This document shows positions 659-32,089 of a stretch of DNA of 34,244 nt, in pieces. The DNA is from Gammaproteobacteria bacterium (GTDB lineage: Bacteria; Pseudomonadota; Gammaproteobacteria; Arenicellales; UBA868), in contig JAAZYQ010000006.1 of the NCBI GenBank assembly GCA_014239575.1, forward strand, positions 1 to 34,244. Reading direction: 5' to 3'. Within the stretch, counting starts at the first letter, position 1. Each line of letters starts with the position of its first letter. Position numbers and translations under genes: made by a program. The notes below the pieces were generated by a model, which was given only the letters and a program-made list of their open reading frames with translations, was not told where the DNA came from and searched no databases.

Positions 659-1531
659 CTAGCCTCCCAGAAACAGCTCTCCGACCTTTGGGTTCTGGAG
701 TAAATCGTCACCCTTGCCGGCAATAGCAATCTGCCCCGACACCATGACATATCCAATGTCGGCAAACTCCAGGCCTTTCTTGGCATTTTGCTCAACCATG
801 ATGATCGTCTTTCCCTCTTTATGCTGAAGATCATTCAGAATTTCAAAAACCATATCAATGAAACGCGGTTCCAGGCCGATCGAGGGTTCATCGACCAATA
901 AAACATCAGGGTTCATAACCAGCGCCCGCGAGATCTCCAGTAACCGTCGCTCCCCGCCTGACAACACTTTGGCCTGATGTTTTCGGCGTGCAGCCAACTG
1001 GGGATATTTCTCAAAAATCTCCTCGGCCGAGCGTTTCGCCTCAGCCTTCTGGTCCTTGAGAAAACCACCCATCCACAGATTTTCCTCTACCGTCATTCCT
1101 GGAAAAATCGACTTATCCTGCAAGATATAGGCAACACCAGCTTTAGCAAGCTTCTGATTAGATGAAAGTGTCGTAACATCGAGTTGGCTATCGCCATGGC
1201 CGATCAGAATACGGCCCGAGAAGATATTGTTGAATCCAAAAATCGCATGCAGAACCGTCGATTTACCTGCACCGTTGGGGCCAATCAGACACAGTGATTG
1301 TTTGCGCCCCACACGAAGATCAATCTCGTGCAGAATCTGCATCCGGCCATAACCGGCAGACAGTTTCTCCAGTGACACATAAGGATCACCATCAACCAGT
1401 GCATCAAGCTGTTCAGGGCTGATGTCTTCTGCGATTGAGGCCGCCTGCTTGGTTACTTCATCAACAGATATGACCGAGTCGACAGCTCCAAGCCCGTACC
1501 CGCCAGCGTTTTTGTTGTCATTGGGTGTCAT
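659..1531 (-). CDS. livF: HAAT-type ABC transporter ATP-binding protein (LivF-like) with an N-terminal extension of about 50 aa
   Basis: Walker A GPNGAGKST, signature LSGGERRLLEI, Walker B VLLVDEPSIGL; start overlaps livG stop (TAATG). Confidence 0.93.
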   Translation of the reverse strand: MTPNDNKNAGGYGLGAVDSVISVDEVTKQAASIAEDISPEQLDALVDGDPYVSLEKLSAGYGRMQILHEIDLRVGRKQSLCLIGPNGAGKSTVLHAIFGFNNIFSGRILIGHGDSQLDVTTLSSNQKLAKAGVAYILQDKSIFPGMTVEENLWMGGFLKDQKAEAKRSAEEIFEKYPQLAARRKHQAKVLSGGERRLLEISRALVMNPDVLLVDEPSIGLEPRFIDMVFEILNDLQHKEGKTIIMVEQNAKKGLEFADIGYVMVSGQIAIAGKGDDLLQNPKVGELFLGG

Positions 1532-2274
1532 TAATGCGCGCCCAGATAAGCGTCGATAACACGCGGGTCACTCTGGATTTCGGCAGGTGAACCCTGAGCC
1601 AGTAGCTCACCATGGGCGAGACAATAAATCTTGTCGGCCATGTTCATAATGACCCGCATGTTGTGCTCTATCACAAATAGCGTGATGCCAAGTTCTGAAT
1701 TGGCGCGACGCAATCGATCAATCAGTCCGTTAATCAAGGTAGGGTTAATCCCGGCTGTAGGCTCGTCCAGCAACAACCCGGTAGGCTCGTTCATCAAGGC
1801 CATGGCGAATTCCAGAAGTTTCTGCTGACCAAAAGAAAGTGACCCAGCTCGTAAGAATCGTTTTTCGTATAGCCCGACAAACTCAAGAAGCCGTTCTGCG
1901 CGTTCATGTTCTTCGGCACCATTCCGGCCGAAGGTGTCAACGAAACGCATTTTTCGATGCGGCAAGGAAATCAGCATATTCTCGACCCCGGTCATCTCCC
2001 CATATATGCGTGTCTGCTGGAAGGTGCGCAACAGGCCGAGCCTGGCTATTTTCTGCACCGGCAGTTTCGAAATCTCCCGGCCTTCGAACTGGATGGTTCC
2101 CGAATCAATCGGGTGATATCCCACGATGGAGTTAAATAACGTGGTCTTGCCAGATCCGTTGGGGCCAATTAACCCCGTAATTCCCCCTTTTTCTACCGAC
2201 AATGAAATATCGCTGTTGGCCACAACCCCGCCATAGGACTTGCTGACATTGTTGACCTCAATAATGATTGTCAC
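1531..2274 (-). CDS. livG: HAAT-type ABC transporter ATP-binding protein (LivG-like)
   Basis: GPNGSGKTT, LSFGQQKLLE, LLLDEPTAGINP; LivG-type C-terminus DPRVIDAYLG. Confidence 0.95.
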   Translation of the reverse strand: MTIIIEVNNVSKSYGGVVANSDISLSVEKGGITGLIGPNGSGKTTLFNSIVGYHPIDSGTIQFEGREISKLPVQKIARLGLLRTFQQTRIYGEMTGVENMLISLPHRKMRFVDTFGRNGAEEHERAERLLEFVGLYEKRFLRAGSLSFGQQKLLEFAMALMNEPTGLLLDEPTAGINPTLINGLIDRLRRANSELGITLFVIEHNMRVIMNMADKIYCLAHGELLAQGSPAEIQSDPRVIDAYLGAH

Positions 2275-3311
2275 TGCCCTGCCTCAGTTGCGGCATCATC
2301 TGACGACTCACGCGCTTCAAGACGATCGGGTCTTTTGTTTAAAAACCAACCAACCACACCGCCCTCGAAATAAACCACGGTTATCACAATCAATGCGCCT
2401 AAAGCGACCCATTGCCAGCCCAAAAGATAAGTCCAGGTGACCTCCTTAAATACATGAAACACGATTGCGCCGATCACGGGGCCCCACAAAGTCCCCTTTC
2501 CACCCAGCAATACGCAGACCACCATGAAAATCCCCAAATTAATCGTCTGATATGCGGTTTCCAAAGGTTCAAAATGAATCAGCTGGAAGGCAGATATTGC
2601 GCCGACAACCCCAACAAAGAATGCTGACATCGCCCAGGTGGCTAATTTGTACTGCAGGGTATGTATACCCATCGCTTCGGCCTTTTCCTCATCATCCCGG
2701 ATCGCATTAATAGCGGCACCGAATCGCGTTGTATACAGCCACTTGAGAAAGACGAAAAGAGCAACGCCTGTACCCGCAAACAGAAAGTAGAAAAGGACTT
2801 TTCCCGTGGCGAAATCACCTGGGTACACCGGCAGCGCAATTCCCTGGCCAGCGCCGACCCATTCCCAGTTGGACACCAACTCTCCAGTGGCGATGGCAAC
2901 GCCCAAGGTGCCGATCGCAAAATACGGGCCGCGCAGACCGAAGGTGACGTAACCGATAATGACGGCTACCAACGCGCAAAACAGGCCAGCCCCGAGCATA
3001 CCCAGAAACAACCCAGAAAAATATTGCAGGTCGGTAAACGCTTGTATTCCGCCGCCTGCCGCATTCGTGTAGTCACCCACATCGTAGACCATGCCAATCG
3101 TAATCACCGCGGCGACGTACATTCCGGTGCCGTAAAAGGTGATATTGCCAAGCGAGTTATAGCCCATTTGCCCGCCGGTCATATCCCATGTTAAAGCAAC
3201 AATAATCATCAGCCACAAGGTTGCCAGCTGTGTTCCAAAGTTAGGAAACACAAACGGCGCTGCAATGATTCCAACTAGCAGCAAAAGGTAGGAAAACTGT
3301 TTTCGCGTCAT
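2271..3311 (-). CDS. livM: HAAT-type ABC transporter permease (LivM-like)
   Basis: Multi-TM protein with LivM-type motifs; stop overlaps livG start; ATG at 3311 preferred over the longer ORF start at 3356. Confidence 0.92.
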   Translation of the reverse strand: MTRKQFSYLLLLVGIIAAPFVFPNFGTQLATLWLMIIVALTWDMTGGQMGYNSLGNITFYGTGMYVAAVITIGMVYDVGDYTNAAGGGIQAFTDLQYFSGLFLGMLGAGLFCALVAVIIGYVTFGLRGPYFAIGTLGVAIATGELVSNWEWVGAGQGIALPVYPGDFATGKVLFYFLFAGTGVALFVFLKWLYTTRFGAAINAIRDDEEKAEAMGIHTLQYKLATWAMSAFFVGVVGAISAFQLIHFEPLETAYQTINLGIFMVVCVLLGGKGTLWGPVIGAIVFHVFKEVTWTYLLGWQWVALGALIVITVVYFEGGVVGWFLNKRPDRLEARESSDDAATEAGQ

Positions 3312-3333
3312 GGTCTGGTATATACCTTGAAAT

Positions 3334-4245
3334 TTACTGCAGGCTTTGACGAGCACGTCGCTGCTGCCAAAGCCGAATGATCAACACGATCAATAGTAAC
3401 AACACCGCTATTGCCTGTTGATACCCGATACCAAAAATGTGAGCGCCATACTGTTCTAGAGCCCCTATCCCAAGGCCGGCTGCAATGACCCCGGGCAGGT
3501 TGCCCAAGCCCGCGGCGGTGACGATCACAAATGCTCGAATCGAATGGGTAATACCGTAGAAGGGCTGAATAATCCAGACCATGACGATGATCGCGCCAGC
3601 GGCACCGCAAATAGCGGCATTTAGCGAGAAAGTGAACGAGTAGACCTTGTCCGTATCGATACCCAGTACACGGGCTGCCCGCCGATCCTGTGCCGTGGCC
3701 CGAATCGCCTGCCCCATGCGACTGTACTTCATAAAGATGACAACTCCGGTTGCTAATGTTCCCGCCATCAGCACGCCGATCAACTTTGCAATCGGCACAT
3801 CAATGAAGCCATCGAAGAAGTACAGCGTGTTGTAACCCAAATCGACACTTTGCGTATCCGAGCCAAATAACAAGTTAAGTATCTGTGCAATCATGATCGC
3901 AAGACCAAATGTGGCCAGCAATGTAGTGAATAAGTCCCGATCGATTACCCGGCAGATAATCACTCGGTATATAAACCAACCAAAACCCCACATCACCATA
4001 AACGCGATTGGCACCCCCAGTAAGGCATGGACACCTCTCTCCACCAACCACCAGGAGATGTAACCTCCCGCAATAACAAAGTCGCCCTGAGCAAGGTTCT
4101 TGACATTCATTACCCCCCATACCAGAGCCAAACCATAAGCCGCAAGGGCAAACAAGGAGCCAATCATGATTCCGTCAAGAACAATCTTGAGGTTTACAAC
4201 CGGAAATTGAAATAACAGAGAAATATTACCGGCAATTTGATCCAT
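3334..4245 (-). CDS. livH: HAAT-type ABC transporter permease (LivH-like)
   Basis: DGIMIGSLFALAAYGLALVWGVMNVKNLAQGDFVIAGGY N-terminus typical of LivH. Confidence 0.94.
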   Translation of the reverse strand: MDQIAGNISLLFQFPVVNLKIVLDGIMIGSLFALAAYGLALVWGVMNVKNLAQGDFVIAGGYISWWLVERGVHALLGVPIAFMVMWGFGWFIYRVIICRVIDRDLFTTLLATFGLAIMIAQILNLLFGSDTQSVDLGYNTLYFFDGFIDVPIAKLIGVLMAGTLATGVVIFMKYSRMGQAIRATAQDRRAARVLGIDTDKVYSFTFSLNAAICGAAGAIIVMVWIIQPFYGITHSIRAFVIVTAAGLGNLPGVIAAGLGIGALEQYGAHIFGIGYQQAIAVLLLLIVLIIRLWQQRRARQSLQ

Positions 4246-4450
4246 TAGAACTACTTTTGGGTAAGGACATTAAGAGTCTGCTGATGATTTAGGATACAAG
4301 CCGCGTTTGTCAACTGGTAGAAAGGGCAAATGACAGCGCCGACGCGATCGGCGAACTTGCCACACCTGCTGTAATGCCACCCGTCAGGATCACCCGCGAG
4401 CCGCTAGCCCTTTTTGCCAACGCCAGACTCTCAAAGCACTGGCGGTAGAA

Positions 4451-4486
4451 ACTGGTACCGGGCATTCACCAATACCTGGTACCAGT
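4451..4486 (-). promoter_or_regulatory. Perfect 9-bp inverted repeat (ACTGGTACC ... GGTACCAGT, 18-nt loop) between binding-protein and livH genes
   Basis: Read directly from sequence; role as mRNA processing/stabilising hairpin is inference. Confidence 0.5.
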
Positions 4487-4504
4487 CCAGAACAACCGAT
4501 TTTC

Positions 4505-5734
4505 CTAGTTTCGTGGCCAATTGAGTGGATGCGATGCAAAAGCCGAAGGCGCCACGACGTTATATTTTCCGTCCTGAATCTGACGGAGCACCATCGGTTT
4601 AGCAATATTGTTTCCGGCCTCGGAGAACCTAATGTCCCCATAGAAGGTCTTGAGGTCAGTTGCAGCTATGGCATCACGCAGCACCTCCTTGTCGAGACTG
4701 CCTGCGCGCTCAAAGGCATCTTTGAACACGTACACTGCGGCGGAGGCCTGTGCTAACTGATACGGGACCTTCTTGTTTGCATAATCAGAGTATGCCCCTT
4801 TAACTTCAGTATTGAAGTTCGCTGCGGTCCCGAAAAGTGAATCTTCGTAAGTCAGGGTCTCGGCCCACTGCGTTGAGCACAGAATATCGTTGGCCGCTGC
4901 ACCAAACTTACCGGTCACATCGGCTGCCTCACAATGCGTCACCGCTACCATCGGCACCTTTACGTTCTGTTCATCGATCTGGCGTACGGCGGTGGCCGCG
5001 CCTTTGGAGTGTCCACTTACGATCAAGACATCAGGCTTGAGCAATTTCACTTTCGTCAGGATTGCACTCATGTCAGAAAGATCGCGCGGCAGCTTCTCAT
5101 CAACAACTGCCTTCATGCCAAATTTCGCCGCGTCTTCAAGCACGCCAGCACGAATATCGAGAGAGAAAGGATCGTTCTCGACTGCTATGGCAACTCTGAC
5201 TGAAGACGGATCTTTACCGGACTCAGTGGCTTTTTCTGCCGCCAACGCAATAGCAGATGCGAGGTACTGTTCGGATGTTGACAACACAGCGAACAGGTAT
5301 TTGTATCCTTTGTTAAACAATGATCGTGACGCGCCTTCAGCTTCAATCATGGGAATCTGATACTTTTCGGTGATCGGCGCGATCGCCTTGGTCATACCGG
5401 AGGAATAGGGGCCCAACATGTATTGCACTTTATCCTGATTGATCAGCCGTTCGGCCAGCGTAGCCGCGCGATCGCCCTTGGACTCGTCATCGTAGTAAAT
5501 GACCTTAAAGTTGTAACACTTGCCATCCACTTGCACGCCACCAGCGTCTTTGATCTTCTGGATCGCGAACTCGTATCCATTTTTGGCGTGCATGCCGTTG
5601 GTTGCATATTTCCCGGTCAGCGAGATCGCTGAGCCAAGGGTGATAGTTTCACACTCTGCAGATGCCGATGCAGATCCGGGAAACAATAGGGTTGCCCCAA
5701 CTAAGGCACCCATCAAAGACAGATTGATTTTCAT
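4505..5734 (-). CDS. HAAT-type ABC transporter substrate-binding protein, secreted
   Basis: Signal peptide MKINLSLMGALVGATLLFPGSASASA; periplasmic-binding fold motifs (ITLGSAISLTGKYATNG); strong AGGAGG Shine-Dalgarno upstream. Confidence 0.95.
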   Translation of the reverse strand: MKINLSLMGALVGATLLFPGSASASAECETITLGSAISLTGKYATNGMHAKNGYEFAIQKIKDAGGVQVDGKCYNFKVIYYDDESKGDRAATLAERLINQDKVQYMLGPYSSGMTKAIAPITEKYQIPMIEAEGASRSLFNKGYKYLFAVLSTSEQYLASAIALAAEKATESGKDPSSVRVAIAVENDPFSLDIRAGVLEDAAKFGMKAVVDEKLPRDLSDMSAILTKVKLLKPDVLIVSGHSKGAATAVRQIDEQNVKVPMVAVTHCEAADVTGKFGAAANDILCSTQWAETLTYEDSLFGTAANFNTEVKGAYSDYANKKVPYQLAQASAAVYVFKDAFERAGSLDKEVLRDAIAATDLKTFYGDIRFSEAGNNIAKPMVLRQIQDGKYNVVAPSAFASHPLNWPRN

Positions 5735-6048: not shown

Positions 6049-6792
6049 ATGAGCCAATTACCGGTGATCAAACGAGACGATGTTGTCAATATGCGTATCT
6101 GGCGCGGCGACGCCAGCGGCGGAAGTTTTGTTGACTACAAAATCCCGATGTCAGAAACTCAAACCGTTCTCGACGCCGTGACTTGGGTTCAACGCAATGT
6201 TGAGCCGGGCCTGTCCTATCGTTTCGCCTGTCGTGTGGGCATGTGTGGCTCTTGCGCCATGATGGTCAACGGTCGTCCGCGCTGGACATGTCGCACCCAC
6301 GTGTCGAAAGTCATCAAGAATCATCAGATCAAACTTGAACCGCTACGCAATCTTCCGGTGATCAAGGATCTGGTATGCGACCTGTCAGATTTTTTTGCCA
6401 AATGGCTCAAGGCCAATGGGCGGTTCGTCCCCACAGAAACGCGCGAGCGCCCGGTGAAAAAAATCTCTCCTTTGTCCAAACAACGCCAAGCGGCGAACAC
6501 GGCTATTGAGTGCATCAATTGCGCGATCTGCTACGCTGCCTGTGATGCGGTTGAACAAAATCCCAACTATCTGGGTCCGGCGGCGCTGAATCGCGCCTGG
6601 ACCCTGATGAATGATGTAAGAGATGGTGGCAAGCCAGAGCGTCTTCGTGCAGTTACTGGGGACGGTGGCTGCCAGTGCTGCCACTCACAACATGGCTGCG
6701 CCAGCCACTGCCCTAACGAGCTTAACCCTGCTCGGTCTATAGCCGGTCTAAAACAGGCCGCGGTAACCGCTATATTCAAAGGAGAGGTCTGA
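6049..6792 (+). CDS. sdhB: Succinate dehydrogenase/fumarate reductase-like iron-sulfur subunit
   Basis: 2Fe-2S motif CRVGMCGSC, CINCAICYAAC cluster and CHSQHGCASHCPNELNP cluster. Confidence 0.93.
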   Translation: MSQLPVIKRDDVVNMRIWRGDASGGSFVDYKIPMSETQTVLDAVTWVQRNVEPGLSYRFACRVGMCGSCAMMVNGRPRWTCRTHVSKVIKNHQIKLEPLRNLPVIKDLVCDLSDFFAKWLKANGRFVPTETRERPVKKISPLSKQRQAANTAIECINCAICYAACDAVEQNPNYLGPAALNRAWTLMNDVRDGGKPERLRAVTGDGGCQCCHSQHGCASHCPNELNPARSIAGLKQAAVTAIFKGEV

Positions 6793-6796
6793 GTTA

Positions 6797-7129
6797 GTGT
6801 CGGGGTTAGGTCTTTATCTGGCACAACGCATAAGCGCTATGGTGATGATTCCTTTAGTGCTAACGCATCTAGGGGTAATGATCTACGCAGTCCGTGGGGG
6901 GCTCGATACAGCCGAGATTCTTTCCCGCACTCAGGGTAGTTTGTTCTGGGGAAGCTTATATGGGTTGTTTGTTATTACCGCCTCGATCCACGCTGCAATT
7001 GGCCTTCGGGTTATTGCTTATGAGTGGCTCAAGCTATCCGGATTAGGGCTAAATGTGTTTGCCGTACTTGTTGGGTTGGGACTCCTGGCTCTCGGGGGAC
7101 AAGCAGTCTATACGGTGGTACTTGCATGA
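6797..7129 (+). CDS. Succinate dehydrogenase-like membrane anchor subunit (first, GTG start)
   Basis: Small 3-TM protein between SdhB-like and SdhA-like genes; QRISA and HAAIGLRVIAYEWL motifs. Confidence 0.8.
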   Translation: MSGLGLYLAQRISAMVMIPLVLTHLGVMIYAVRGGLDTAEILSRTQGSLFWGSLYGLFVITASIHAAIGLRVIAYEWLKLSGLGLNVFAVLVGLGLLALGGQAVYTVVLA

Positions 7130-7467
7130 TCAGGCCGCACCAAAAACAGCCGCTGTGGCTGGCATTCGCCGTGCATCGAATGTCGGGTATCGGCTTGGCA
7201 CTGTTTCTGCCTGCTCACTTTTATATCCTCGGGACAGCGATGAAAGATCCGCAGTCGCTGGATACCTTTTTGCATTGGTCTGAGCTTCCGCTGGTACGAG
7301 TCGCTGAGACTGGCCTGGTGTTCCTTCTGGCAGTCCACTGCTTTGGCGGCCTGCGACTGCTGGCCCTCGAATTTCTCCCGTGGACCCCATACCAGAAAAC
7401 ACTCGCAGCGCTTGCAGCCTCATTGGCCCTTTTTTTCGCTGTCAGTTTTCTTTTGAATGGAATCTAA
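7126..7467 (+). CDS. Succinate dehydrogenase-like membrane anchor subunit (second)
   Basis: ATG at 7126 overlaps the previous stop (ATGA); FAVHRMSGIGLALFLPAHF and HCFGGLRLLALEF resemble SdhC heme/quinone motifs. Confidence 0.8.
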   Translation: MIRPHQKQPLWLAFAVHRMSGIGLALFLPAHFYILGTAMKDPQSLDTFLHWSELPLVRVAETGLVFLLAVHCFGGLRLLALEFLPWTPYQKTLAALAASLALFFAVSFLLNGI

Positions 7468-7469
7468 CT

Positions 7470-9215
7470 GTGCTCGAACGTATTGACACCGATATTCTGA
7501 TACTTGGCGCCGGGGGTGCTGGGCTGGTTGCCGCTCTGCATGCCTACAAAGGCTCACCTGACTTAAAACTCACCATTGCCGTCAAAGGACTGATGGGTAA
7601 ATGTGGCTGCACCCGCATGGTTCAAGGCGGCTACAACGTTGCACTGGGTCCCGGCGACTCGATAGAGCGCCACTTCATGGACACCATTGTCGGTGGCAAA
7701 TGGCTACCGCACCAGGAGATGGCCTGGAAACTGTGTGAAACCGCAGTGACCCGGGTTCAGGAACTGGAAAATGAAATCGGGTGTTTTTTTGATCGGGAAG
7801 ATGACGGCTCACTACATCACAAGGCATTCGCAGGCCAAACTGTAGATCGTACCGTTCATAAAGGTGATCTTACCGGTATCGAGATCATCAACAGGCTCAT
7901 GGAGCAGGTGCTTGCGCTCCCCATTCAGCGACTCGAGGAACACCGAGCTCTAGCGCTTATTCCCAATCGGGCCGGTGATGCGTTAGCCGGCGTACTATTA
8001 TCAGACATGCGTCGCGGCACAATGCGGTTGGTACGGGCAAAGGCAGTTCTTTTGGCCACCGGCGGCGGGCCGAGCATGTATCGCTACCATACACCCTCTG
8101 GTGAAAAGAGTATGGATGGTCTGGCGATGGCCTTGCGCCTGGGCTTACCGCTGCGGGACATGGAGATGGTGCAGTTCCATCCCACCGGACTGCTTGGCGG
8201 AAAAGACACCCGAATGACCGGCACCGTTCTCGAAGAAGGCTTGCGTGGCGCCGGCGGCCATCTTCTGGACGGCAATGGACGCCGATTCATGTTTGACTAC
8301 GATGAACACGGCGAACGAGCCACCCGGGATATTGTCAGCCGTGGGATCTATGCGCAAATGAGAAGCGGCCACACCACACCCCATGGAGGCGTCTACATCT
8401 CGATGGGTCATCTGGGTGCAGACAATGTGCGCAACAAGTTCCGCGGCATGGTAAAGCGTTGCGCCGACTGCGGATTCGATCTGGCCGGAGGTCGCGTCGA
8501 GGTCGTCCCAACCGCACACTATTTTATGGGAGGACTGGTATGCGATCCCGACACAACGACTGAACTCCCTGGCTTGTTTGTCGCCGGAGAAGATGCCAGC
8601 GGCATGCATGGTGCAAACCGGTTGGGCGGTAACGGAGTGGCCAATTCGACTGTTTTTGGTGGTGTGGCCGGTGAGGTTATGAGTGCGTACGCCGCTTCTG
8701 CCGGGCTACACCAGGATCCCGATGAAACCATCGTTGAAGCTGAAATATCCAGGGCACTTCACCCTTTTTCGAAAAAACCCGGAAACGTCAATAGTCTTCG
8801 TGAAGAGCTGATGGAAATCATGTGGGACAAGGTAGGCGTCATACGAACCGCCGAAGGGATCAAACGGGGTCTCGGCCAGATTCGCCAGTTGAAGGCAGAA
8901 TTGCTTGAAACCGGCGTGGGCGAGTTCAATACCATCTTCAATATGACCTGGAACGACTGGCTCAATCTGCAAAGCCTTACCGAAACATCGGAAATGATCG
9001 CCCAAGCAGCATTGTCACGAGAAAACTCGCGCGGCGCTCATTATCGTGAGGACTTTCCGCACCCCGGCGAATTGGATGATTCCCGCTTCACTCTCGCTCG
9101 CTCCCGCGCCGACGGTATAACTGTCAAGCAGGAGGCGGTGGTATTCTCAATCATTCAACCCGGTGAATCGTTGATTGAGGGTTACCATGAATCCGCTGCG
9201 TCAACTAGGAAGTGA
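7470..9215 (+). CDS. sdhA: Succinate dehydrogenase/fumarate reductase-like flavoprotein subunit (GTG start)
   Basis: FAD motif ILGAGGAGLVAALHA; FHPTGLLGG, EEGLRGAGGHLL, HGANRLGGNGVANSTVFGG. Confidence 0.93.
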   Translation: MLERIDTDILILGAGGAGLVAALHAYKGSPDLKLTIAVKGLMGKCGCTRMVQGGYNVALGPGDSIERHFMDTIVGGKWLPHQEMAWKLCETAVTRVQELENEIGCFFDREDDGSLHHKAFAGQTVDRTVHKGDLTGIEIINRLMEQVLALPIQRLEEHRALALIPNRAGDALAGVLLSDMRRGTMRLVRAKAVLLATGGGPSMYRYHTPSGEKSMDGLAMALRLGLPLRDMEMVQFHPTGLLGGKDTRMTGTVLEEGLRGAGGHLLDGNGRRFMFDYDEHGERATRDIVSRGIYAQMRSGHTTPHGGVYISMGHLGADNVRNKFRGMVKRCADCGFDLAGGRVEVVPTAHYFMGGLVCDPDTTTELPGLFVAGEDASGMHGANRLGGNGVANSTVFGGVAGEVMSAYAASAGLHQDPDETIVEAEISRALHPFSKKPGNVNSLREELMEIMWDKVGVIRTAEGIKRGLGQIRQLKAELLETGVGEFNTIFNMTWNDWLNLQSLTETSEMIAQAALSRENSRGAHYREDFPHPGELDDSRFTLARSRADGITVKQEAVVFSIIQPGESLIEGYHESAASTRK

Positions 9216-9224
9216 GCGAAACAA

Positions 9225-10163
9225 ATGATCACCTATGAAGCCCTTGAACAGACCGCCAGCAATATTATGGCCAATGCTGCCATTGATATTCCCCCAGACT
9301 ACCGCAAAGGGATCGAACAAATGGCGGTAACGGAGACGGGAAACCTGTCGTGCTTTGTCCTTAAGACCATGATTGATAACTGGGATGCGGCGACTGAGGA
9401 CCGCCGACCAATGTGTGCGGATACAGGCCTACCCCGCTACTACGTTAAGGTAGGCAACAACGCGCAGGTGGAAGGTGGGTTTATTGCGCTTGAGAAAGCG
9501 CTGCGTAATGCGACGGCCCAGGCAACCCACGACATTCCACTGCGGCCCAATCGCGTTCATCCCCTGTGGCGCACGGACAACAATAATAACGTCGGTATCA
9601 ACGCACCCGAAATCGACTGGAGTTTTGAACCCGACGTCAGTTGGGTCGACATTACAACAGTCCATAAAGGCGGTCTGTTTGGTACGGATTACCGGATGCT
9701 TTTCCCCGGAGATGGCATTGACGGCATCAAACGTTTTTATCTGGATACCTTGATTTCGTTTGGAAAACGAGGCCTGGCTTGCCAGCCGGCCATTGTCGGG
9801 GTTGGTCTTGGTGGCTCAAAAGATACCTGCATGGTGCTTGGAAAACAGGCCGCCTGCCTGCGCACTGTCGGCAACCGCAATCCAGATCCCAAAATCGCCG
9901 CGCTGGAACTGGAACTTCAAACTCTTGGTAACAACATCGGCATGGGGGCTATGGGTTTTGTCGGGTCGTCCATGGTGGCCGATTGCCACATCGAAGTGGG
10001 GTATACCCATACCGGTGGATTACCCATGAGTGTTCATACCTTTTGCCTCTCCTCACGACGCGCAACTGCCAGAATTCATTTGGATAACACTGTCGAATAT
10101 CGTACGGACCCGCAATGGTTTACACCTTACATACGCCGGGAGACACCGTCATGGCCAAACTAA
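9225..10163 (+). CDS. Class I (4Fe-4S) fumarate hydratase / tartrate dehydratase alpha subunit
   Basis: MCADTGLPRYYVKVG, GLGGSKDTCMVLGKQA, ELELQTLGNNIGMGAMGFVG, GYTHTGGLPMSVH. Confidence 0.92.
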   Translation: MITYEALEQTASNIMANAAIDIPPDYRKGIEQMAVTETGNLSCFVLKTMIDNWDAATEDRRPMCADTGLPRYYVKVGNNAQVEGGFIALEKALRNATAQATHDIPLRPNRVHPLWRTDNNNNVGINAPEIDWSFEPDVSWVDITTVHKGGLFGTDYRMLFPGDGIDGIKRFYLDTLISFGKRGLACQPAIVGVGLGGSKDTCMVLGKQAACLRTVGNRNPDPKIAALELELQTLGNNIGMGAMGFVGSSMVADCHIEVGYTHTGGLPMSVHTFCLSSRRATARIHLDNTVEYRTDPQWFTPYIRRETPSWPN

Positions 10164-10831
10164 CTGACGGATTTGAGACAGTCCATCTGACGATTCCAAT
10201 AGATACGCAAGAGATCGCTAATCTAAAAATAGGAACCATCGTCTATCTCGACGGGGTCATCTACACCGCACGCGAGGGGGTATACACACGGGTTATCGAC
10301 AATGGCCATAAGATTCCAACGGATCTTGCTGCAATCAGTAACGTTAATTTTCAGTGTTCACCCGCAGCTGCAATCAAGGCGGATGGCAGTTACAACGTTG
10401 GCGGAGTCACGGCAACGGCCAGTTTTCGTTTTGCCAAGTGGATGAAAGAGTGGTTTCGTCTCTCCGGTGCCCGTGTCATCATTGGCAAAGGTGGCATGTC
10501 GAGCGAGCAGTATAAAGAACTGTTTGTCCCAGCCGGTGCGATCTACCTGACCACAGTCGGATACGGAACCGGAGCACTGTTAGGGCGCGGCATCCAAAAG
10601 GTCCGGCAAGTCCACTGGGCCGAGGAATTAGGCACTGCGCAGGCCATGTGGATTTTTGAGGTAGAGAATTTCGGTCCGTTTATTGTCGATAGCGACTTAC
10701 AGGGTAACAGCCTTTTCGAGGCACAAGGAGCGCTCATCAACGAGCGACTGGCTACCCTGTACGAAGGCCTCAAAAGCCCCTCGCTCAGCCGTTACGGCGA
10801 AACTGACGATCGACGTGACGAGTTAATTTAG
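10151..10831 (+). CDS. Class I fumarate hydratase / tartrate dehydratase beta subunit
   Basis: YLDGVIYTARE, GKGGMSSEQY; overlaps the alpha gene by 13 nt (ATG at 10151 preferred over ORF start 10115). Confidence 0.9.
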   Translation: MAKLTDGFETVHLTIPIDTQEIANLKIGTIVYLDGVIYTAREGVYTRVIDNGHKIPTDLAAISNVNFQCSPAAAIKADGSYNVGGVTATASFRFAKWMKEWFRLSGARVIIGKGGMSSEQYKELFVPAGAIYLTTVGYGTGALLGRGIQKVRQVHWAEELGTAQAMWIFEVENFGPFIVDSDLQGNSLFEAQGALINERLATLYEGLKSPSLSRYGETDDRRDELI

Positions 10832-13282: not shown

Positions 13283-14473
13283 TTACGCAGCGTCCTCGGC
13301 ATAATGATCCATCAGGATGCGTGCCACTTCAGGGCGAGCGAATTCCAGGGGCAGATCCTCGCCCGCTGCAAGCATCTCCCGAACCCGAGTGCCAGATAAC
13401 AGTACAAAATCTTCTTTCTGGTGATCCGGTGCATCACGCATCATCACTACCCGGTTCAGCTTCTTTGAATAGGCGGTGTGGTCTGCTCGGAAAATTTCGA
13501 TATCGAGCGCATCTGAAGGCACTTCTTCATCAAAAATCTCCTGCGCGTCAAAGGCGCCGTAAAAATCACCAACCCCAGCATGATCACGCCCAACAATCAG
13601 GTGCGTGCAACCGGCATTCTGTCGAAACAGTGCATGCAGCACGGCTTCTCGCGGCCCCGCGTAGAGCATATCAAAGCCATACCCGCTGATCATTACTGAA
13701 TTAGACGGAAAATACAGATCGACCATCTTACGGATAGCAGCGTCTCGCACCTCGGCCGGTATATCACCGGGCTTGAGTTTGCCCAGCAGCATATGGATCA
13801 GCACACCATCAGCGCCTACCGTGTCACTGGCTATCTTGCACAACTCTTCATGGGCGCGGTGCATGGGGTTGCGCGTCTGAAACGCGACCACAGTCTCCCA
13901 CCCGCGTTCGGCGATCTCCTGACGAATTTGGCCAGCTGTGCAAAAAGTGCCAGGGAACTCGCTTTCAAAATAACTGAAGTTCAACACCTCGATCGGCCCT
14001 GAGATTACAAACTTTCCTAAAGAGATAAAGGTCGCAACACCCGGATGCTCGGGATCTACTGTGCGGTACACCTTTTGTGTGATGAGATCGATTTCTTCAT
14101 CAGTCAGTTCCTCGACGGCTTCGACCTTCTGAATGGCAATCACCGGATCACCGAATATATTCGGATCACGCAATGCGATCTGTGAACCCACAGCAATCCC
14201 GTGACCATCGGATACAAGGTTGAGGACTGGCACAGGCCAGAACAGACCATCGCTGGTACGCATATCAGTGGCCACACTAAGCGCGTCAACCTTGTTCATG
14301 AACCCGGTTAGAGGCGTGAAATATCCGGCTCCCAGCATCACGACATTGGCCGCTGCTGCAGAACTGATGATCAATTGTGGCAGTTTGACGGCTTGCGCTT
14401 CCAACGTCGCGCGACGCGCCGAATCCTCTACCAGCAGTGGAGTGAGGGAATCTGAACCATGGGGCCTGATCAT
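13283..14473 (-). CDS. sat: Sulfate adenylyltransferase (ATP sulfurylase), homo-oligomeric type
   Basis: GYFTPLTGFM, VVAFQTRNPMHRAHEEL, LIVGRDHAGVGDFYG, LSGTRVREMLAAGE. Confidence 0.96.
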   Translation of the reverse strand: MIRPHGSDSLTPLLVEDSARRATLEAQAVKLPQLIISSAAAANVVMLGAGYFTPLTGFMNKVDALSVATDMRTSDGLFWPVPVLNLVSDGHGIAVGSQIALRDPNIFGDPVIAIQKVEAVEELTDEEIDLITQKVYRTVDPEHPGVATFISLGKFVISGPIEVLNFSYFESEFPGTFCTAGQIRQEIAERGWETVVAFQTRNPMHRAHEELCKIASDTVGADGVLIHMLLGKLKPGDIPAEVRDAAIRKMVDLYFPSNSVMISGYGFDMLYAGPREAVLHALFRQNAGCTHLIVGRDHAGVGDFYGAFDAQEIFDEEVPSDALDIEIFRADHTAYSKKLNRVVMMRDAPDHQKEDFVLLSGTRVREMLAAGEDLPLEFARPEVARILMDHYAEDAA

Positions 14474-25732: not shown

Positions 25733-26917
25733 ATGAAACTCCGAATTGTTCTACTTTCAGTAGTCGCCGCTCTAACGGCCCTGCCGGCCGTCGCAGCAGA
25801 GACGGTCAAGATTGGCTTTGTGACCACGTTGACGACCCCAGCCGGTGCGCTTGGTCGGGATCAGATAGACGCGGCCAACATCGCGCTTGACCATATCGGC
25901 CATAAAATGGGCGGCAAGGACGTTGAATTTATCGTTGAAGACGACGGATTCAAACCAGAGATTGGTAAGCAGAAAACCGACAAACTGGTGAAGCAGGATG
26001 ATGTAGATTTTATTGCCGGCTTCCTCTGGTCACATGTCCTTTTGGCCTCAAAGAAATCAGCTCTGGATGGAGGGAAATTCCTGATTAGCGCCAATGCTGG
26101 CCCCTCGCCGCTGGCAGGCAAAGCATGCCATAAGAACTTCTTCTCTTCTTCCTGGCAAAACGACCAAAACCCAATGGCGACCGGCGAAGTGCTGAACAGC
26201 AAGGGTGTCAAAAAACTTTATATCATGTCACCGAACTATGCTGCGGGGAAAAACATGGTCTCCGGTGTTGAGCGCACTTTCAAGGGTGAAGTCGTCGGCA
26301 AAGATATGACCAAGTGGGGCAAAGACATGCAGCTCGACTTCTCTGCCGAATTGGCCAAAGCAAAAGCATCAGGTGCTGACGCGATCTTTGTATTTTATCC
26401 AGGCCCAGCCGGACCGGCATTCATTAAGCAATATGAGCAGGCAGGCCTGCGCGGTACGATTCCCCTTTACACGGTATTCACGGTCGACGCCTTGTCATTG
26501 GCGCGCCTGCAGAAAGCCGGGCTCGGGGGTGTTTTAGGCTCATGGAACACCATGTTCTGGGCGCCGGATCTGGACAACGCCACTAATAAGCGTTTTGTTG
26601 CGGATTTCAAAGCCAAAACCGGACGTTACCCGACCCACTACGCCGCTCAGGCTTATGATGCAATCATGCTGATCAAGAGCGGTGTCGATGCTGTCGATGG
26701 CAACACAGATGATCAGGACGGAATTCGGGCAGCCTTGAGCAAGGCCGATTTTCCGAGCGTCCGCGGGAAATATCGCTATGGGCCGAACCATTTCCCGATC
26801 CAGAACTTCTATCTTCGTACGGTTAAAGCCGATGCCAATGGGGACTGGTTTGTGTCATATGTATCTACCGTTCTTACAGACCACCAGGATACCTACTACG
26901 ATCAGTGCCATTTGTAG
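25733..26917 (+). CDS. HAAT-type ABC transporter substrate-binding protein, secreted (system 2)
   Basis: Signal peptide MKLRIVLLSVVAALTALPAVAAET; periplasmic-binding motifs; GAGG upstream. Confidence 0.94.
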   Translation: MKLRIVLLSVVAALTALPAVAAETVKIGFVTTLTTPAGALGRDQIDAANIALDHIGHKMGGKDVEFIVEDDGFKPEIGKQKTDKLVKQDDVDFIAGFLWSHVLLASKKSALDGGKFLISANAGPSPLAGKACHKNFFSSSWQNDQNPMATGEVLNSKGVKKLYIMSPNYAAGKNMVSGVERTFKGEVVGKDMTKWGKDMQLDFSAELAKAKASGADAIFVFYPGPAGPAFIKQYEQAGLRGTIPLYTVFTVDALSLARLQKAGLGGVLGSWNTMFWAPDLDNATNKRFVADFKAKTGRYPTHYAAQAYDAIMLIKSGVDAVDGNTDDQDGIRAALSKADFPSVRGKYRYGPNHFPIQNFYLRTVKADANGDWFVSYVSTVLTDHQDTYYDQCHL

Positions 26918-26940
26918 CGTTGTTTTCTCGTTCCTGATAG

Positions 26941-26975
26941 ACGCCCGGCAGATTGATCTAAAATCTGCCGGGCGT
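26941..26975 (+). promoter_or_regulatory. Strong intercistronic stem-loop: 14-bp perfect stem (ACGCCCGGCAGATT / AATCTGCCGGGCGT), 7-nt loop
   Basis: Read directly from sequence, between the binding-protein stop and livH start. Confidence 0.8.
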
Positions 26976-27028
26976 ATTCCGGCGCTTTCATTTGACCTTC
27001 TTCGCGTCTCACTGATTCAGAGATCACC

Positions 27029-27952
27029 ATGGACTGGACACTGCTGACCGTACAACTGCTGAACGGTCTGCAACTGGGAATTCTGTTGTTTTTACTGGCG
27101 TCGGGGCTGACGCTGATCTTCGGCATCATGGATGTAGTGAACCTGGCGCACGGCTCACTGTACATGGCCGGCGCGTTCCTGTGTGCCACTTTCACACAAT
27201 GGTTTGACTCGTTTCTTCTCGGCCTGCTCGCAGCACTACCGGCAGTCGCGATTATTGGCCTGCTGGTTGAACTAATCGTAATCCGCCGTCTTTATCAACG
27301 TGACCACCTGGATCATGTCCTGGCGACGTTTGGCCTGATTTTGGCATTTGATACCCTGACACAGATGATCTGGGGGCCAGATGGACAGGTGATTCCACTG
27401 CCAGCCTGGCTCGACGGGCAAGTCACGCTAACCGCCGATATCGTGTTACCTACCTATCGACTTGCCATCATTACAACGGGTTTGCTCGTTGGTGTTGGCC
27501 TTTTTGTGCTGGTTACCCAAACCCGGCTCGGTATGCGCATCCGCGCCGGCGCAACTAACCGAACTATGATCAGTGCGTTGGGAATCAATATCGGCATGTT
27601 ATTTTCGATCGTCTTTGGAATAGGCGCCGTACTGGCTGGCCTGGCCGGGATGATGATCGCCCCGATTACTGAAGCATCGATTGGCATGGGCAACCAAATT
27701 ATCATCGTCGCATTTGTGGTTATCGTCATTGGCGGGATCGGCTCAATCAAAGGTGCTTTCATTGCTGCAATCCTGGTCGGTTTAATCGACACCATGGGGC
27801 GCTCCTATCTCGACGTACTATTCAAATTGTTTATGTCCGCTCAGAACGCTGAAACCTCGGCTCCCGCGATATCGGCCATGCTGATCTACATCCTGATGGC
27901 TGTGATACTGGCCGTTCGACCAACTGGCCTTTTTGGGCCGCGTGGCCGTTGA
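27029..27952 (+). CDS. livH: HAAT-type ABC transporter permease (LivH-like, system 2)
   Basis: LNGLQLGILLFLLASGLTLIFGIMDVVNLAHGSLYMAGAF. Confidence 0.95.
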   Translation: MDWTLLTVQLLNGLQLGILLFLLASGLTLIFGIMDVVNLAHGSLYMAGAFLCATFTQWFDSFLLGLLAALPAVAIIGLLVELIVIRRLYQRDHLDHVLATFGLILAFDTLTQMIWGPDGQVIPLPAWLDGQVTLTADIVLPTYRLAIITTGLLVGVGLFVLVTQTRLGMRIRAGATNRTMISALGINIGMLFSIVFGIGAVLAGLAGMMIAPITEASIGMGNQIIIVAFVVIVIGGIGSIKGAFIAAILVGLIDTMGRSYLDVLFKLFMSAQNAETSAPAISAMLIYILMAVILAVRPTGLFGPRGR

Positions 27953-27965
27953 TTCCAAGTACGCC

Positions 27966-28928
27966 ATGAGTTTGTCTACCCTAACCTTGCGAGGCTTTGT
28001 CACAGTACTGATGCTTGCGGTCCTGGCGCTGGTGCCACCGTTAGTAGACCTTACCGGCAATGCCTTTCTTATCGACCTGGCAACGCGTTGTGTCATTCTG
28101 GCGATCGCTGCCGTCAGCCTCAATTTGATTCTCGGTTATGGCCGGATGATCAGCTTTGGCCACGCAGCCTACCTGGGCATTGGCGCCTATGCCGTCGGAA
28201 TACCGGTCTACTATGAAATTTACAACGGCTATCTTCATATTCTGGTGGCGATGGCGGTATCGGCCGTATTTGCGTTCGCCACTGGTCTGGTCTGCCTGCG
28301 GACCCGGGGCGTGAACTTCATCATGATCACGATGGCTTTCGCCCAGATGGTGTTTTTTACTTTCGTTTCGATGGAAGAATACGGCGGTGACGATGGACTG
28401 GTGATTGAAGTGAGAAGTGAGTTCAGCAGATTCATAAACCTGGAGGATGCGACGACTCTCTACTATGTCTGTTTCGCCTCACTACTGGTGGTGCTTTATC
28501 TGGTTAAACGTATCGTTAGTTCACGCTTTGGCATGGTGATTCGGGGTGCTCGGGGCAATGAGTTACGGATGCAATCCTTGGGTTTTGACACTTTCAGATA
28601 CAAATTGATCTGCTATGTGATCGCCGGCACGATTTGCGGGTTTGCTGGCGCACTACTCGGCAATTTCACTAATTTCATCAGTCCCGAAATGATGGACTGG
28701 ACTCGTTCCGGCGAACTAATCTTTATGGTGGTCCTTGGCGGTGCGGGCAGCCTATTCGGGCCGGTGCTTGGCGTCAGCGTATTTTTGTTGTTGGAAGAGT
28801 TCCTATCAGGGCTTTGGCTTTACTGGCAGTTGGTTTTCGGAATATTTCTTATCCTGGTGGTGCTATTTGCCAACGGCGGCATCGACAGTTGGCTGAGCGG
28901 ACGCAGCAAACGATCCCATGACAGCTAA
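27966..28928 (+). CDS. livM: HAAT-type ABC transporter permease (LivM-like, system 2)
   Basis: AAVSLNLILGYGRMISFGHAAYLGIGAYAVG; ATG at 27966 preferred over ORF start 27933. Confidence 0.94.
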   Translation: MSLSTLTLRGFVTVLMLAVLALVPPLVDLTGNAFLIDLATRCVILAIAAVSLNLILGYGRMISFGHAAYLGIGAYAVGIPVYYEIYNGYLHILVAMAVSAVFAFATGLVCLRTRGVNFIMITMAFAQMVFFTFVSMEEYGGDDGLVIEVRSEFSRFINLEDATTLYYVCFASLLVVLYLVKRIVSSRFGMVIRGARGNELRMQSLGFDTFRYKLICYVIAGTICGFAGALLGNFTNFISPEMMDWTRSGELIFMVVLGGAGSLFGPVLGVSVFLLLEEFLSGLWLYWQLVFGIFLILVVLFANGGIDSWLSGRSKRSHDS

Positions 28929-29730
28929 AGCTATCCTCAGCATCGCCAACCTGCACAAATCCTTTGGAGGGGTTGCCGCGACCAAACAGGTTTCATTGGA
29001 TGTAGTCGAAGGAGAAATTCATGCGATCATCGGCCCCAACGGCGCAGGGAAAACCACGTTGGTCTCCCAGTTGGCCGGGGTACTGCTGCCGGATTCTGGC
29101 CGGATCCTCTTTCAGGGAAACGACATCACCCAGATGCCGGCCCACCGGCGCCCTCATCTGGGGATCGCGCGGTCTTTCCAGATCACCAGCATTATCCTTG
29201 ACATGACCGTACTCGAAAATGTACTGCTGGCGGTGCAGGCCAAAGCAGGTCACTCCTACCGTTTCTGGGCCAACAGTGGCGATGACGCATCTCTGGTAGA
29301 GCCGGCTATGGCATCGTTAGAGCAGGTTGGGCTCCAGAATCAGGCCATGCAAATGGCAGGCCCGTTATCCCACGGCGAACATCGACAGTTGGAAATGGCT
29401 ATGGTGCTGGCGACCCATCCCGTACTAATACTGCTGGACGAACCAACCGCTGGTATGGGACAGGAAGATTCCAGTCGGATGGTCAGAACACTCCAGGCAC
29501 TGAAGGGGTCACGCACCATTATCTTGGTGGAACATGACATGAACACGGTGTTCATGCTAGCCGACCGGATTACCGTATTAGTCGAAGGACAGGTCATCGC
29601 GACCGGAGACCCGGATGCGATTCGCTCTAACCCAAGGGTACGTCAGGCCTATCTCGGTGAAGAACTGGATTCGATTCCCAGCGAACCGCGCGCTGAGGAT
29701 CCGATGGCCCATTCACCGTCAGCATGTTAA
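28918..29730 (+). CDS. livG: HAAT-type ABC transporter ATP-binding protein (LivG-like, system 2)
   Basis: IIGPNGAGKTTLVSQLAG, LSHGEHRQLEMAMVLA, LLDEPTAGM. Confidence 0.95.
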   Translation: MTAKAILSIANLHKSFGGVAATKQVSLDVVEGEIHAIIGPNGAGKTTLVSQLAGVLLPDSGRILFQGNDITQMPAHRRPHLGIARSFQITSIILDMTVLENVLLAVQAKAGHSYRFWANSGDDASLVEPAMASLEQVGLQNQAMQMAGPLSHGEHRQLEMAMVLATHPVLILLDEPTAGMGQEDSSRMVRTLQALKGSRTIILVEHDMNTVFMLADRITVLVEGQVIATGDPDAIRSNPRVRQAYLGEELDSIPSEPRAEDPMAHSPSAC

Positions 29731-30425
29731 GTGTCGAAAGCCTTCAGGCTCATTACGGCGCAAGCCAGGCCCTGTTCGGAGTCAATCTACAGGTCAATGC
29801 TGGAGAGGTTGTCACCCTGATGGGCCGCAATGGTATGGGGAAAACGACGTCCATCAACTGTATCATGGGGATTATTCCAACCAGTGCCGGCCAGATCACA
29901 TGGGAAGATCAAGTGATTACAAACCGACCCAGTTATTATATTGCACAGGCGGGGATCGGACTGGTTCCTGAAGGTCGGCAGATTTTCCCGAATCTCTCGG
30001 TCCTCGAAAACCTGATTGTCGCTGCCCGCGCAGGACCCAGCGACAGCGATCCCTGGGACAGTATGCGGGTGTTTCAGATGTTTCCCGCTCTGGCCGCACG
30101 CCGGCATGGGCTTGGTAATCTTCTTTCGGGCGGTGAACAACAGATGCTCGCCATCGGCAGAGCGCTGATGACTAACCCTCGCCTGCTCATTCTGGACGAG
30201 GCAACTGAAGGGCTGGCGCCTCTGGTACGTCAGGAGATCTGGTCCTGCCTTTCTCGCCTCAAAGGAGATGGTCTTTCGATTCTGGTGATCGACAAGAACG
30301 TTGCCGACCTGGCTCGAGTCGCCGACCGGCATTTTATTATCGAAAAAGGGGAAACGGTCTGGTCCGGCCAGTCGGAAGCGTTGCTCGCCAGTGAGGATAT
30401 CAAACGCCGCTATCTGGGTATTTGA
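29724..30425 (+). CDS. livF: HAAT-type ABC transporter ATP-binding protein (LivF-like, system 2)
   Basis: LMGRNGMGKTT, LSGGEQQMLAIGRALM, LILDEATEGLAP. Confidence 0.95.
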   Translation: MLSVESLQAHYGASQALFGVNLQVNAGEVVTLMGRNGMGKTTSINCIMGIIPTSAGQITWEDQVITNRPSYYIAQAGIGLVPEGRQIFPNLSVLENLIVAARAGPSDSDPWDSMRVFQMFPALAARRHGLGNLLSGGEQQMLAIGRALMTNPRLLILDEATEGLAPLVRQEIWSCLSRLKGDGLSILVIDKNVADLARVADRHFIIEKGETVWSGQSEALLASEDIKRRYLGI

Positions 30426-30553: not shown

Positions 30554-32089
30554 TTAGGCGCTGTAAAGATCCTTGGCATGCCAACCGCTCAGGTCATAGT
30601 CGCTCAAGCATTGCTCAACCATTTCTTCGTACCGGCGGCTGTCGCCGCGCAAATCTGCCCACCGCAACGCATCTAATCGCTGTTGATCGTGGTTGCCCGC
30701 ATAATTCTTCTCGTAGAGCGCATGGCGCCCGGCAAATTCGGAATAAAGTGCATCCCAGATCAATTTAAAGAGTTTTATCCGATCATGGGCGGTCAAACCC
30801 GTGCCACGAAAATACCGCTCTATTACAGGATCTAAATCCGGCGTTTGCAGATCTCGGTGGGATGAGACCGTCACTATCGGCGCGCCGGCAAGAATCTCTT
30901 CAAATATCTGTCGAACTTTTTGCCATACGCCCGTCATATAAATACGCGCGGCGGCGGCTGTCTGGAGTCTAGGCACCACTGAATCCCCTACCCCTGGCTC
31001 AGGGTCAAGCGCCATTGCCGTAGTCAGCGCCCAAACCAACTGACTCATGCCAACCAGTTCTCCTACTGCAGTTTGTACACCACGAAACGAAGCGGTTCCC
31101 GTGGCTTGCGTCCCTTTCATCAACAGCCCACAGGCAAATTCAAGCTTAACCGAAAGACGCGTTGCCGATTGAAGGTTGTACCGATTAAAAAATCCTGAAC
31201 TTGCATAAAATCCCTTGGCCTTATCCACATCGCGATAAACCAAAACATTCTCCCAGGGAATAAACGCATTATGAAATATCAACACGGCATCGTTTTCGTC
31301 GAATCGACTGGCAAGTGGCGCATCAAACGGACTGGCTGCTTTCATTTCATACGATGGCCGGCTTACCAGTTTCATCCCCGGGGTATCCATTTCGACAAAG
31401 AAGACCAGGGCAAACGCTTCATCCTTGCCAGTTTCCATTCGTGCCGCTGAGCCGCTATTGGGAGCAACGAAGGTGGCATGGGTCAATGCAGAACCGGTAG
31501 CAACCATCTTGGCGCCACTCACATACATCCCCCTGTCGTCGTCATGGGTGACGTTGACAAATACGTCAGTTCCCTGGTGATGGGGCTGATCTCTATCCAC
31601 CGGCGGGTCCACCAGTACGTGATTGAGAAACAATGCCTGGGAAGCCACTTTTTTATACCAATTGAGCGCATTACCGCCATTGGGGTGATAGAAATCGGCC
31701 CCTTCAGCAAGTTGCGCCATAAAGGCCGCTTTGTAATCGGGGGTCCGGCCCATCCAGCCAAAACTCATCCGCTGCCACACCGCTATAGCATCCCGCGCTT
31801 CCAGCAGTTCGCCAGCGCTGTAGCTTGGGCAAAAAAACTTGTGAGTGACAATGCCATATTTGTCCGGCCTAGTGAGTACCTGGGCGAATTCGGGGTCATG
31901 CAACCGATCATAGAGTCGAGCTACACTGCTCGCACTATTTCGAAAAGCAGGGTGCCGGGTAACATCCTTGACTCGCTCACCGTCATACCAGATTTCACGC
32001 CCGTCCCGGATACTCTCTAGAAAAGTCTCTCCGGTGAGAAGACAGTTAGTGAGTTTCGCTTTCGTCGGTGGTGTTTGTTTTTCACTCAT
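30554..32089 (-). CDS. FADH2-dependent aromatic monooxygenase, 4-hydroxyphenylacetate 3-monooxygenase (HpaB)-type oxygenase
   Basis: 511 aa; LTGETFLESIRDGREIWYDGERVKDVTRHPAFRNSASSVARLYD N-terminus and FHNAFIPWENVLVYRD typical of HpaB/PvcC-like oxygenases. Confidence 0.9.
   Translation of the reverse strand: MSEKQTPPTKAKLTNCLLTGETFLESIRDGREIWYDGERVKDVTRHPAFRNSASSVARLYDRLHDPEFAQVLTRPDKYGIVTHKFFCPSYSAGELLEARDAIAVWQRMSFGWMGRTPDYKAAFMAQLAEGADFYHPNGGNALNWYKKVASQALFLNHVLVDPPVDRDQPHHQGTDVFVNVTHDDDRGMYVSGAKMVATGSALTHATFVAPNSGSAARMETGKDEAFALVFFVEMDTPGMKLVSRPSYEMKAASPFDAPLASRFDENDAVLIFHNAFIPWENVLVYRDVDKAKGFYASSGFFNRYNLQSATRLSVKLEFACGLLMKGTQATGTASFRGVQTAVGELVGMSQLVWALTTAMALDPEPGVGDSVVPRLQTAAAARIYMTGVWQKVRQIFEEILAGAPIVTVSSHRDLQTPDLDPVIERYFRGTGLTAHDRIKLFKLIWDALYSEFAGRHALYEKNYAGNHDQQRLDALRWADLRGDSRRYEEMVEQCLSDYDLSGWHAKDLYSA

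Follow-up and report, generated by a model that had tools for sequence, protein, structure and literature searches.

A complex II-type flavoprotein with cysteine at the FAD-linking site marks a distinct family probably linked to organosulfonate catabolism

Complex II is normally held to act on succinate and fumarate. The locus described here raises the question of what such an enzyme does, and how it holds its flavin, when the FAD-linking histidine of the flavoprotein is replaced by cysteine. The window is the whole stretch of DNA that was analysed, 34,244 nucleotides of contig JAAZYQ010000006.1 in GenBank assembly GCA_014239575.1, a marine gammaproteobacterium assigned to the Arenicellales. 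The features of the operon that contains the flavoprotein gene are collected in Table 1.

Table 1. Features of the complex II-type operon and its flanking transporter in the window
Feature	Position	Strand	Details
Branched-chain-type ABC transporter	659..5734	−	Divergent from operon; two ATPases, two permeases, binding protein 4505-5734
SdhB-like iron-sulfur subunit	6049..6792	+	Cys ligands of three clusters kept
Membrane anchor, SdhD-like	6797..7129	+	His24 and His65 invariant in 74 loci
Membrane anchor, SdhC/cytochrome b-like	7126..7467	+	His17 and His31 in 77/77 loci; His71 in 76/77 loci
Complex II-type flavoprotein (P0001)	7470..9215	+	581 aa; GTG start 7470, stop 9215; directly after anchor gene
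Signature GKCGCTRMVQGGYN	7596..7637	+	Cys47, codon 7608-7610, at the site of the FAD-linking His
RGAGG (R259-G263)	8244..8258	+	Ala261 corresponds to FrdA Glu250; R259 to FrdA R248
Class I fumarase-like hydratase, N-terminal part	9225..10163	+	Fe-S Cys64, Cys186, Cys274; CADTG replaces CQDTG
Class I fumarase-like hydratase, C-terminal part	10115..10831	+	Alternative start: internal ATG 10151

Cys47 aligned with the FAD-linking His, immediately preceding the conserved Thr of the pattern xHTVxA[Q/E]GG, both in a phmmer comparison with Escherichia coli FrdA and in a MAFFT alignment with E. coli FrdA, SdhA and NadB and the genome's own SdhA. The loop that holds it is one residue longer than that of FrdA and SdhA. 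Against M. smegmatis Sdh1 the aligner placed a gap at Cys47 and paired Gly46 with the His, and whichever gap placement is taken there is no His in residues 43–56 of the window flavoprotein. The preliminary description of this DNA had placed a Cys at the position of the FAD-linking His, and both the coordinates and the alignments agree with it.

A scan of species genomes gave at least 589 confirmed relatives, and the counts below use the best 80 of these. Cys47 is kept in all 80 (67–96% identity), whereas at the adjacent position 45 there is Cys in 68 of them and Ser in the other 12; the invariance of Cys47 beside a position that varies to Ser therefore goes beyond chance. The closest relative among the matches listed, 96% identical, is from the Arenicellales MAG ETNP20 (locus L023). 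Cys is also found at this site in archaeal and actinobacterial members (∼48% identity), and in the members carried on plasmids of Haloarcula, Natribaculum and Rhodococcus jostii RHA1 (47–49% identity) the signature reads GKSGCTRMVQGG or GRSGCTRMVQGG.

In a 27-sequence tree the Cys47 family grouped as a single clade, with support of 100/99, distinct from SdhA, FrdA, NadB and the actinobacterial Sdh1-like proteins; the branches are long and the order of the outer groups is unsafe. Within this set SdhA, FrdA and the Sdh1-like proteins keep the His, and NadB has Ser. An alignment and a tree, which the preliminary description had named as checks, thus gave no conserved His at the site and a clade of its own. 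As judged from sequence, Cys47 is a signature of a distinct complex II family with its own operon and not a quirk of one genome. This branch is widespread and, within the literature searched, seems to be uncharacterized. One member, 70% identical and lying inside the proteobacterial clade, comes from a record titled Oceanobacillus sp. HTM 045 with a Bacillota label (locus L039); that assembly is likely to be mislabelled or contaminated.

The second deviation in the preliminary description, RGAGG where RGEGG is common, is also real: among the best 80 relatives the residue is Ala in 78 and Ser in two, and the Haloarcula member has RGEGA. Loss of the catalytic acid was considered as its meaning and rejected, since E256, which aligns with FrdA Glu245, is retained and lies five positions ahead of the Ala. 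The residues equivalent to FrdA H232, T234, E245, R248, R287, H355 and R390 (H237, T239, E256, R259, R286, H350 and R384) are all present in 80 of the best 80. The complex resembles E. coli FrdABCD and SdhCDAB in fold, in its four-subunit make-up, in its Fe-S ligands and in these catalytic His, Thr, Glu and Arg residues. It differs from them in the Cys and the longer loop around it, in changes near the active site (FA replaces FrdA FG, Ala replaces E250, NG replaces NS, and residues are inserted following HPTG), in extra conserved His residues in the anchors, in being joined to a hydratase operon and in its separate clade.

The flavoprotein scored under the NCBIfam cut-offs of the sdhA, frdA, nadB and tfrA models. 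The TIGR01812 score was 409 bits against a curated cut-off of 567, and every other sdhA/frdA equivalog model was also below its cut-off. The best NCBIfam score, 473 bits, was to TfrA of thiol:fumarate reductase (NF004900), far under the cut-off of 718, and the window operon has membrane anchors rather than a fused TfrB. NadB shares the flavoprotein fold and also lacks the FAD-linking His (Ser in E. coli NadB), but it is soluble, binds FAD non-covalently and has neither SdhB nor anchors; the separate clade and the operon with SdhB and anchors led us to reject an L-aspartate oxidase, and NadB is encoded elsewhere in the source genome. An AlphaFold2 model from a 28-member alignment had a mean pLDDT of 70, falling below 50 for residues 45–80, which include the Cys47 loop; a Foldseek search with the predicted structure gave E. 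coli FrdA as the best match.

The source genome is a draft of 2.5 Mb in 378 contigs (77% complete, 4.5% contamination). It does contain a second, canonical sdhCDAB with the His in SHTVAAQGG, and a homologue of the SdhE assembly factor on the same contig, both of which the preliminary description had marked for a search. The window enzyme is therefore a paralogue and not the housekeeping succinate dehydrogenase. A separate fused fumarase is encoded as well.

The order of SdhB-like subunit, two anchors, flavoprotein and two-part hydratase is found in ∼70 of the best 80 loci, and the individual pieces in 67–77 of the 80, several loci being cut by contig ends. The anchors suggest a dihaem type, because helices one and two of each anchor carry one of the conserved His residues apiece, four in all. 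The binding protein of the divergent ABC transporter stays adjacent to the operon in loci L023, L028, L035, L036 and L140, and this transporter is likely to be the uptake system of the pathway.

Class I fumarases bind substrate through CQDTG and GPT motifs. The hydratase parts, which match Pfam Fumerase and Fumerase_C and show just 26–28% identity to the separate fused fumarase of the source genome, share with FumA and TtdAB the three Fe-S Cys residues (Cys64 in 75 of 75, Cys186 in 72 and Cys274 in 70). They differ in having C[G/A]DTG in all 75 and TAT where GPT is expected. Because the catalytic and Fe-S residues are kept while the near-site residues of the flavoprotein and the CQDTG and GPT motifs are changed, the dehydrogenation and hydration chemistry of the operon looks intact and its pockets look altered. 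In haloarchaeal members no class I fumarase adjoins the flavoprotein and SdhB genes; an ArgH-annotated gene of the fumarase/aspartase superfamily does so (L105:7308-8810 and L106:7227-8729), with a SuyAB-like pair and TauE near, and may be an independent replacement of the hydratase.

The neighbours of the operon in annotated relatives give an indication of its substrate. They include TauE/SafE sulfite exporters, UxaA-family pairs (SuyAB), Ldh-family and hydroxyacid dehydrogenases (among them SlcC-like and ComC-like enzymes), YeiH and sulfite dehydrogenases, along with transporters of the TTT or TRAP type. On plasmids of Methylobacterium radiotolerans and M. oryzae the operon lies together with a TPP enzyme, TauE, a SuyAB-like pair, a symporter, SlcC-like and ComC-like genes and GntR. 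In another genome (G382, 2.0 Mb), ∼16 kb holds SoxC, YeiH, SuyB, SuyA, ComC-like, SlcC-like, two TctC, TPP enzyme, TauE, flavoprotein and hydratase genes. TauE was present in 31 of the best 80 loci and in none of 20 comparably long control stretches taken from carrier genomes, with LysR, TctC and TctA likewise enriched; SuyAB was adjacent in just one of the 80.

Two further neighbours recur. A TPP enzyme of ∼535–545 aa, acetolactate-synthase-like, lies near the operon in 14 of the 80 loci (for instance L112:11730-13355, L110:5404-7005 and L135:12201-13829); it is not Xsc and falls under every NCBIfam cut-off shown. A small NIPSNAP-family protein, 72–94% identical between loci, recurs in nine of the 80 (L111:14479-14793; also L021, L022, L047, L053, L073, L082, L085, L092 and L093).

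Co-occurrence was counted in an even sample of 399 Pseudomonadota genomes, the source genome included. Of these, 11 encoded the flavoprotein, 15 encoded SuyB and 27 had an Xsc that scored above cut-off; all 11 flavoprotein carriers had SuyB or Xsc. With the source genome left out, SuyB or Xsc was present in 10 of 10 carriers compared to 36 of 398 genomes (hypergeometric p ∼1e-11, kinship ignored), and SuyB alone in four of 10 compared to 14 of 398 (p ∼2e-4, kinship ignored). Five of the carriers belong to one family rich in Xsc and five others come from four other families; the association is partly kinship, Xsc being common in Rhodobacteraceae. Among 72,556 plasmids, 15 carried the flavoprotein at 60% identity or more and 13 carried SuyB at the same level, five having both. 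From neighbourhoods and co-occurrence together, we hold with good confidence that the operon is linked to organosulfonate catabolism.

The source genome itself encodes a SuyA-SuyB pair (contig C310) with a divergent GntR-like gene, and Xsc (contig C222). Its SuyB is 67% identical to the SuyB adjoining hpsN and hpsO in Cupriavidus pinatubonensis, where the cluster is hpsRNOUPsuyAB (PMC11382572). Since the draft is incomplete and partly contaminated, the SuyAB and Xsc genes could have been wrongly binned. SlcC had no close homologue in this genome (best 39%). Oxidation of sulfite through APS was considered and is unsupported, as no AprA above the cut-off was found in the draft.

We infer, with moderate confidence, that the operon encodes a counterpart of the succinate-fumarate-malate steps acting on sulfonates, for which 3-sulfopropionate, succinate with a sulfonate for one carboxylate, would be the most likely substrate. 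The membrane-bound complex II paralogue would oxidize 3-sulfopropionate to 3-sulfoacrylate at its FAD, from which the electrons would reach quinone by way of three Fe-S clusters and, probably, a pair of b haems. Next, the fumarase-like hydratase would add water to sulfoacrylate to give sulfolactate. An L-malate-type geometry would yield (R)-sulfolactate, the isomer cleaved by SuyAB; by our reasoning (R)-sulfolactate is the spatial equivalent of (S)-malate because the sulfur alters the priority order. SuyAB, which converts R-sulfolactate to pyruvate and sulfite (PMC12421959), would complete the route, and in other carriers an Xsc route is possible instead. The SuyAB, SlcC/ComC and Xsc enzymes known from C. 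pinatubonensis, Paracoccus and Roseovarius, which cluster or co-occur with the operon, would thus take its predicted product. The known entry points to the sulfolactate pathway are DHPS, sulfolactaldehyde and cysteate (PMC11382572, PMC12421959), in contrast to a complex II-type dehydrogenase.

The sulfonate hypothesis was drawn from the neighbourhoods before we found a report of the same intermediates. A thesis, as cited in PMC11489063, describes homotaurine metabolism in Roseovarius nubinhibens ISM via 3-sulfopropionate, sulfoacrylate and sulfolactate; otherwise no bacterial degradation of 3-sulfopropionate had been reported as of that paper (PMC11489063). R. nubinhibens ISM has the operon, next to TauE, LysR and a TTT transporter (locus L052), and our literature search gave no paper assigning genes to this route. 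When Paracoccus wurundjeri was grown on sulfofucose, a ‘fumarate and tartrate metabolism’ cluster with a TauE homologue seventh by gene number was more abundant and was ascribed to the Krebs cycle (PMC12421959). In P. onubensis (locus L059), TauE follows six operon genes. The induced P. wurundjeri cluster fits the operon of the Cys47 family, the match being one of gene order and numbering alone. If the 3-sulfopropionate reading is correct, a complex II paralogue with a substrate other than succinate would account for the way bacteria begin to degrade 3-sulfopropionate from sulfosugar fermentation or homotaurine, and many ‘fumarate reductase flavoprotein’ annotations would need correcting, possibly with that of the sulfosugar-induced cluster.

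FAD is probably bound non-covalently in this family rather than linked through Cys47, because an E. coli FrdA variant with this His changed to Cys reportedly held its FAD non-covalently. It is possible, though we consider it doubtful, that with any substrate Cys47 bears 8-alpha-S-cysteinyl FAD, attached autocatalytically as in monoamine oxidase. The same reported variant counts against this, as does the 28-member alignment, in which the block G46–N56 is wholly invariant and Cys47 is not singled out; for it are the constancy of Cys47 from Archaea to Pseudomonadota where Cys45 varies to Ser, and the fact that a covalent link would resolve the redox-potential problem of non-covalent oxidation. 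Covalent attachment raises the FAD potential of complex II, engineered non-covalent forms lying ∼90–150 mV lower (PMC9557727). Relatives with non-covalent FAD are reported to reduce fumarate and not to oxidize succinate (PMC9557727), which is in tension with oxidation of 3-sulfopropionate. Oxidation by non-covalent FAD would call for another balance of potentials; alternatively, Cys47 may form a thioether. The invariant Cys is a natural test of why complex II needs covalent flavin: either the family oxidizes its substrate without a link, or it uses Cys for the link where other members use His. The fullest form of the proposal, a sulfonate-oxidizing branch with 8-alpha-S-cysteinyl FAD feeding electrons from 3-sulfopropionate to the quinone pool across Archaea, Actinomycetota and Pseudomonadota, seems unlikely.

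The behaviour of these non-covalent relatives (PMC9557727) and the kept catalytic residues would also suit an ordinary second succinate dehydrogenase/fumarate reductase with non-covalent FAD, such as a low-potential form run reductively. We regard this as improbable: the genome already has a canonical sdhCDAB and a fused fumarase, the hydratase is a constant part of the operon and has altered motifs, and the sulfonate linkage would be left unexplained. The reductive direction, one option in the preliminary description, was set aside on context, the genes sitting among catabolic and sulfite-export genes. Another of its options, a different dicarboxylate, holds in so far as a change of substrate accounts best for the findings; the neighbourhood favours an organosulfonate over methylsuccinate. 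The same operon could act on sulfosuccinate, giving sulfofumarate, which on hydration at the sulfonated carbon would form the bisulfite adduct of oxaloacetate and so oxaloacetate and sulfite. Sulfite exporters fit such a route, and so do the retention of both carboxylate-binding sets and the small replacements nearby (FG to FA, E250A, NS to NG). It would need no SuyAB, SlcC or ComC, yet several cassettes hold them; literature searches on sulfosuccinate catabolism gave no support, and the R. nubinhibens report, as cited in PMC11489063, names 3-sulfopropionate, so that we give this substrate little chance. Methylsuccinate dehydrogenase with a class I fumarase-like mesaconase (methylsuccinate to mesaconate to citramalate), our first idea, would explain an altered active site and draws on promiscuous class I fumarases described in PMC4682846 as having mesaconase activity, but it was set aside as very improbable because it has no role for the sulfite exporters, SuyAB, the sulfite dehydrogenases or the co-occurrence with SuyB and Xsc.

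Elsewhere in the window, a Sat-like (sulfate adenylyltransferase) gene lies ∼2.5 kb from the operon (13283-14473, − strand). Among the 80 loci only L023 shares it, so it may be unrelated to the operon. A second branched-chain-type ABC transporter occupies 25733-30425 (+ strand), and a gene at 30554-32089 (− strand) resembles, by eye, HpaB, a flavin-dependent 4-hydroxyphenylacetate 3-monooxygenase.
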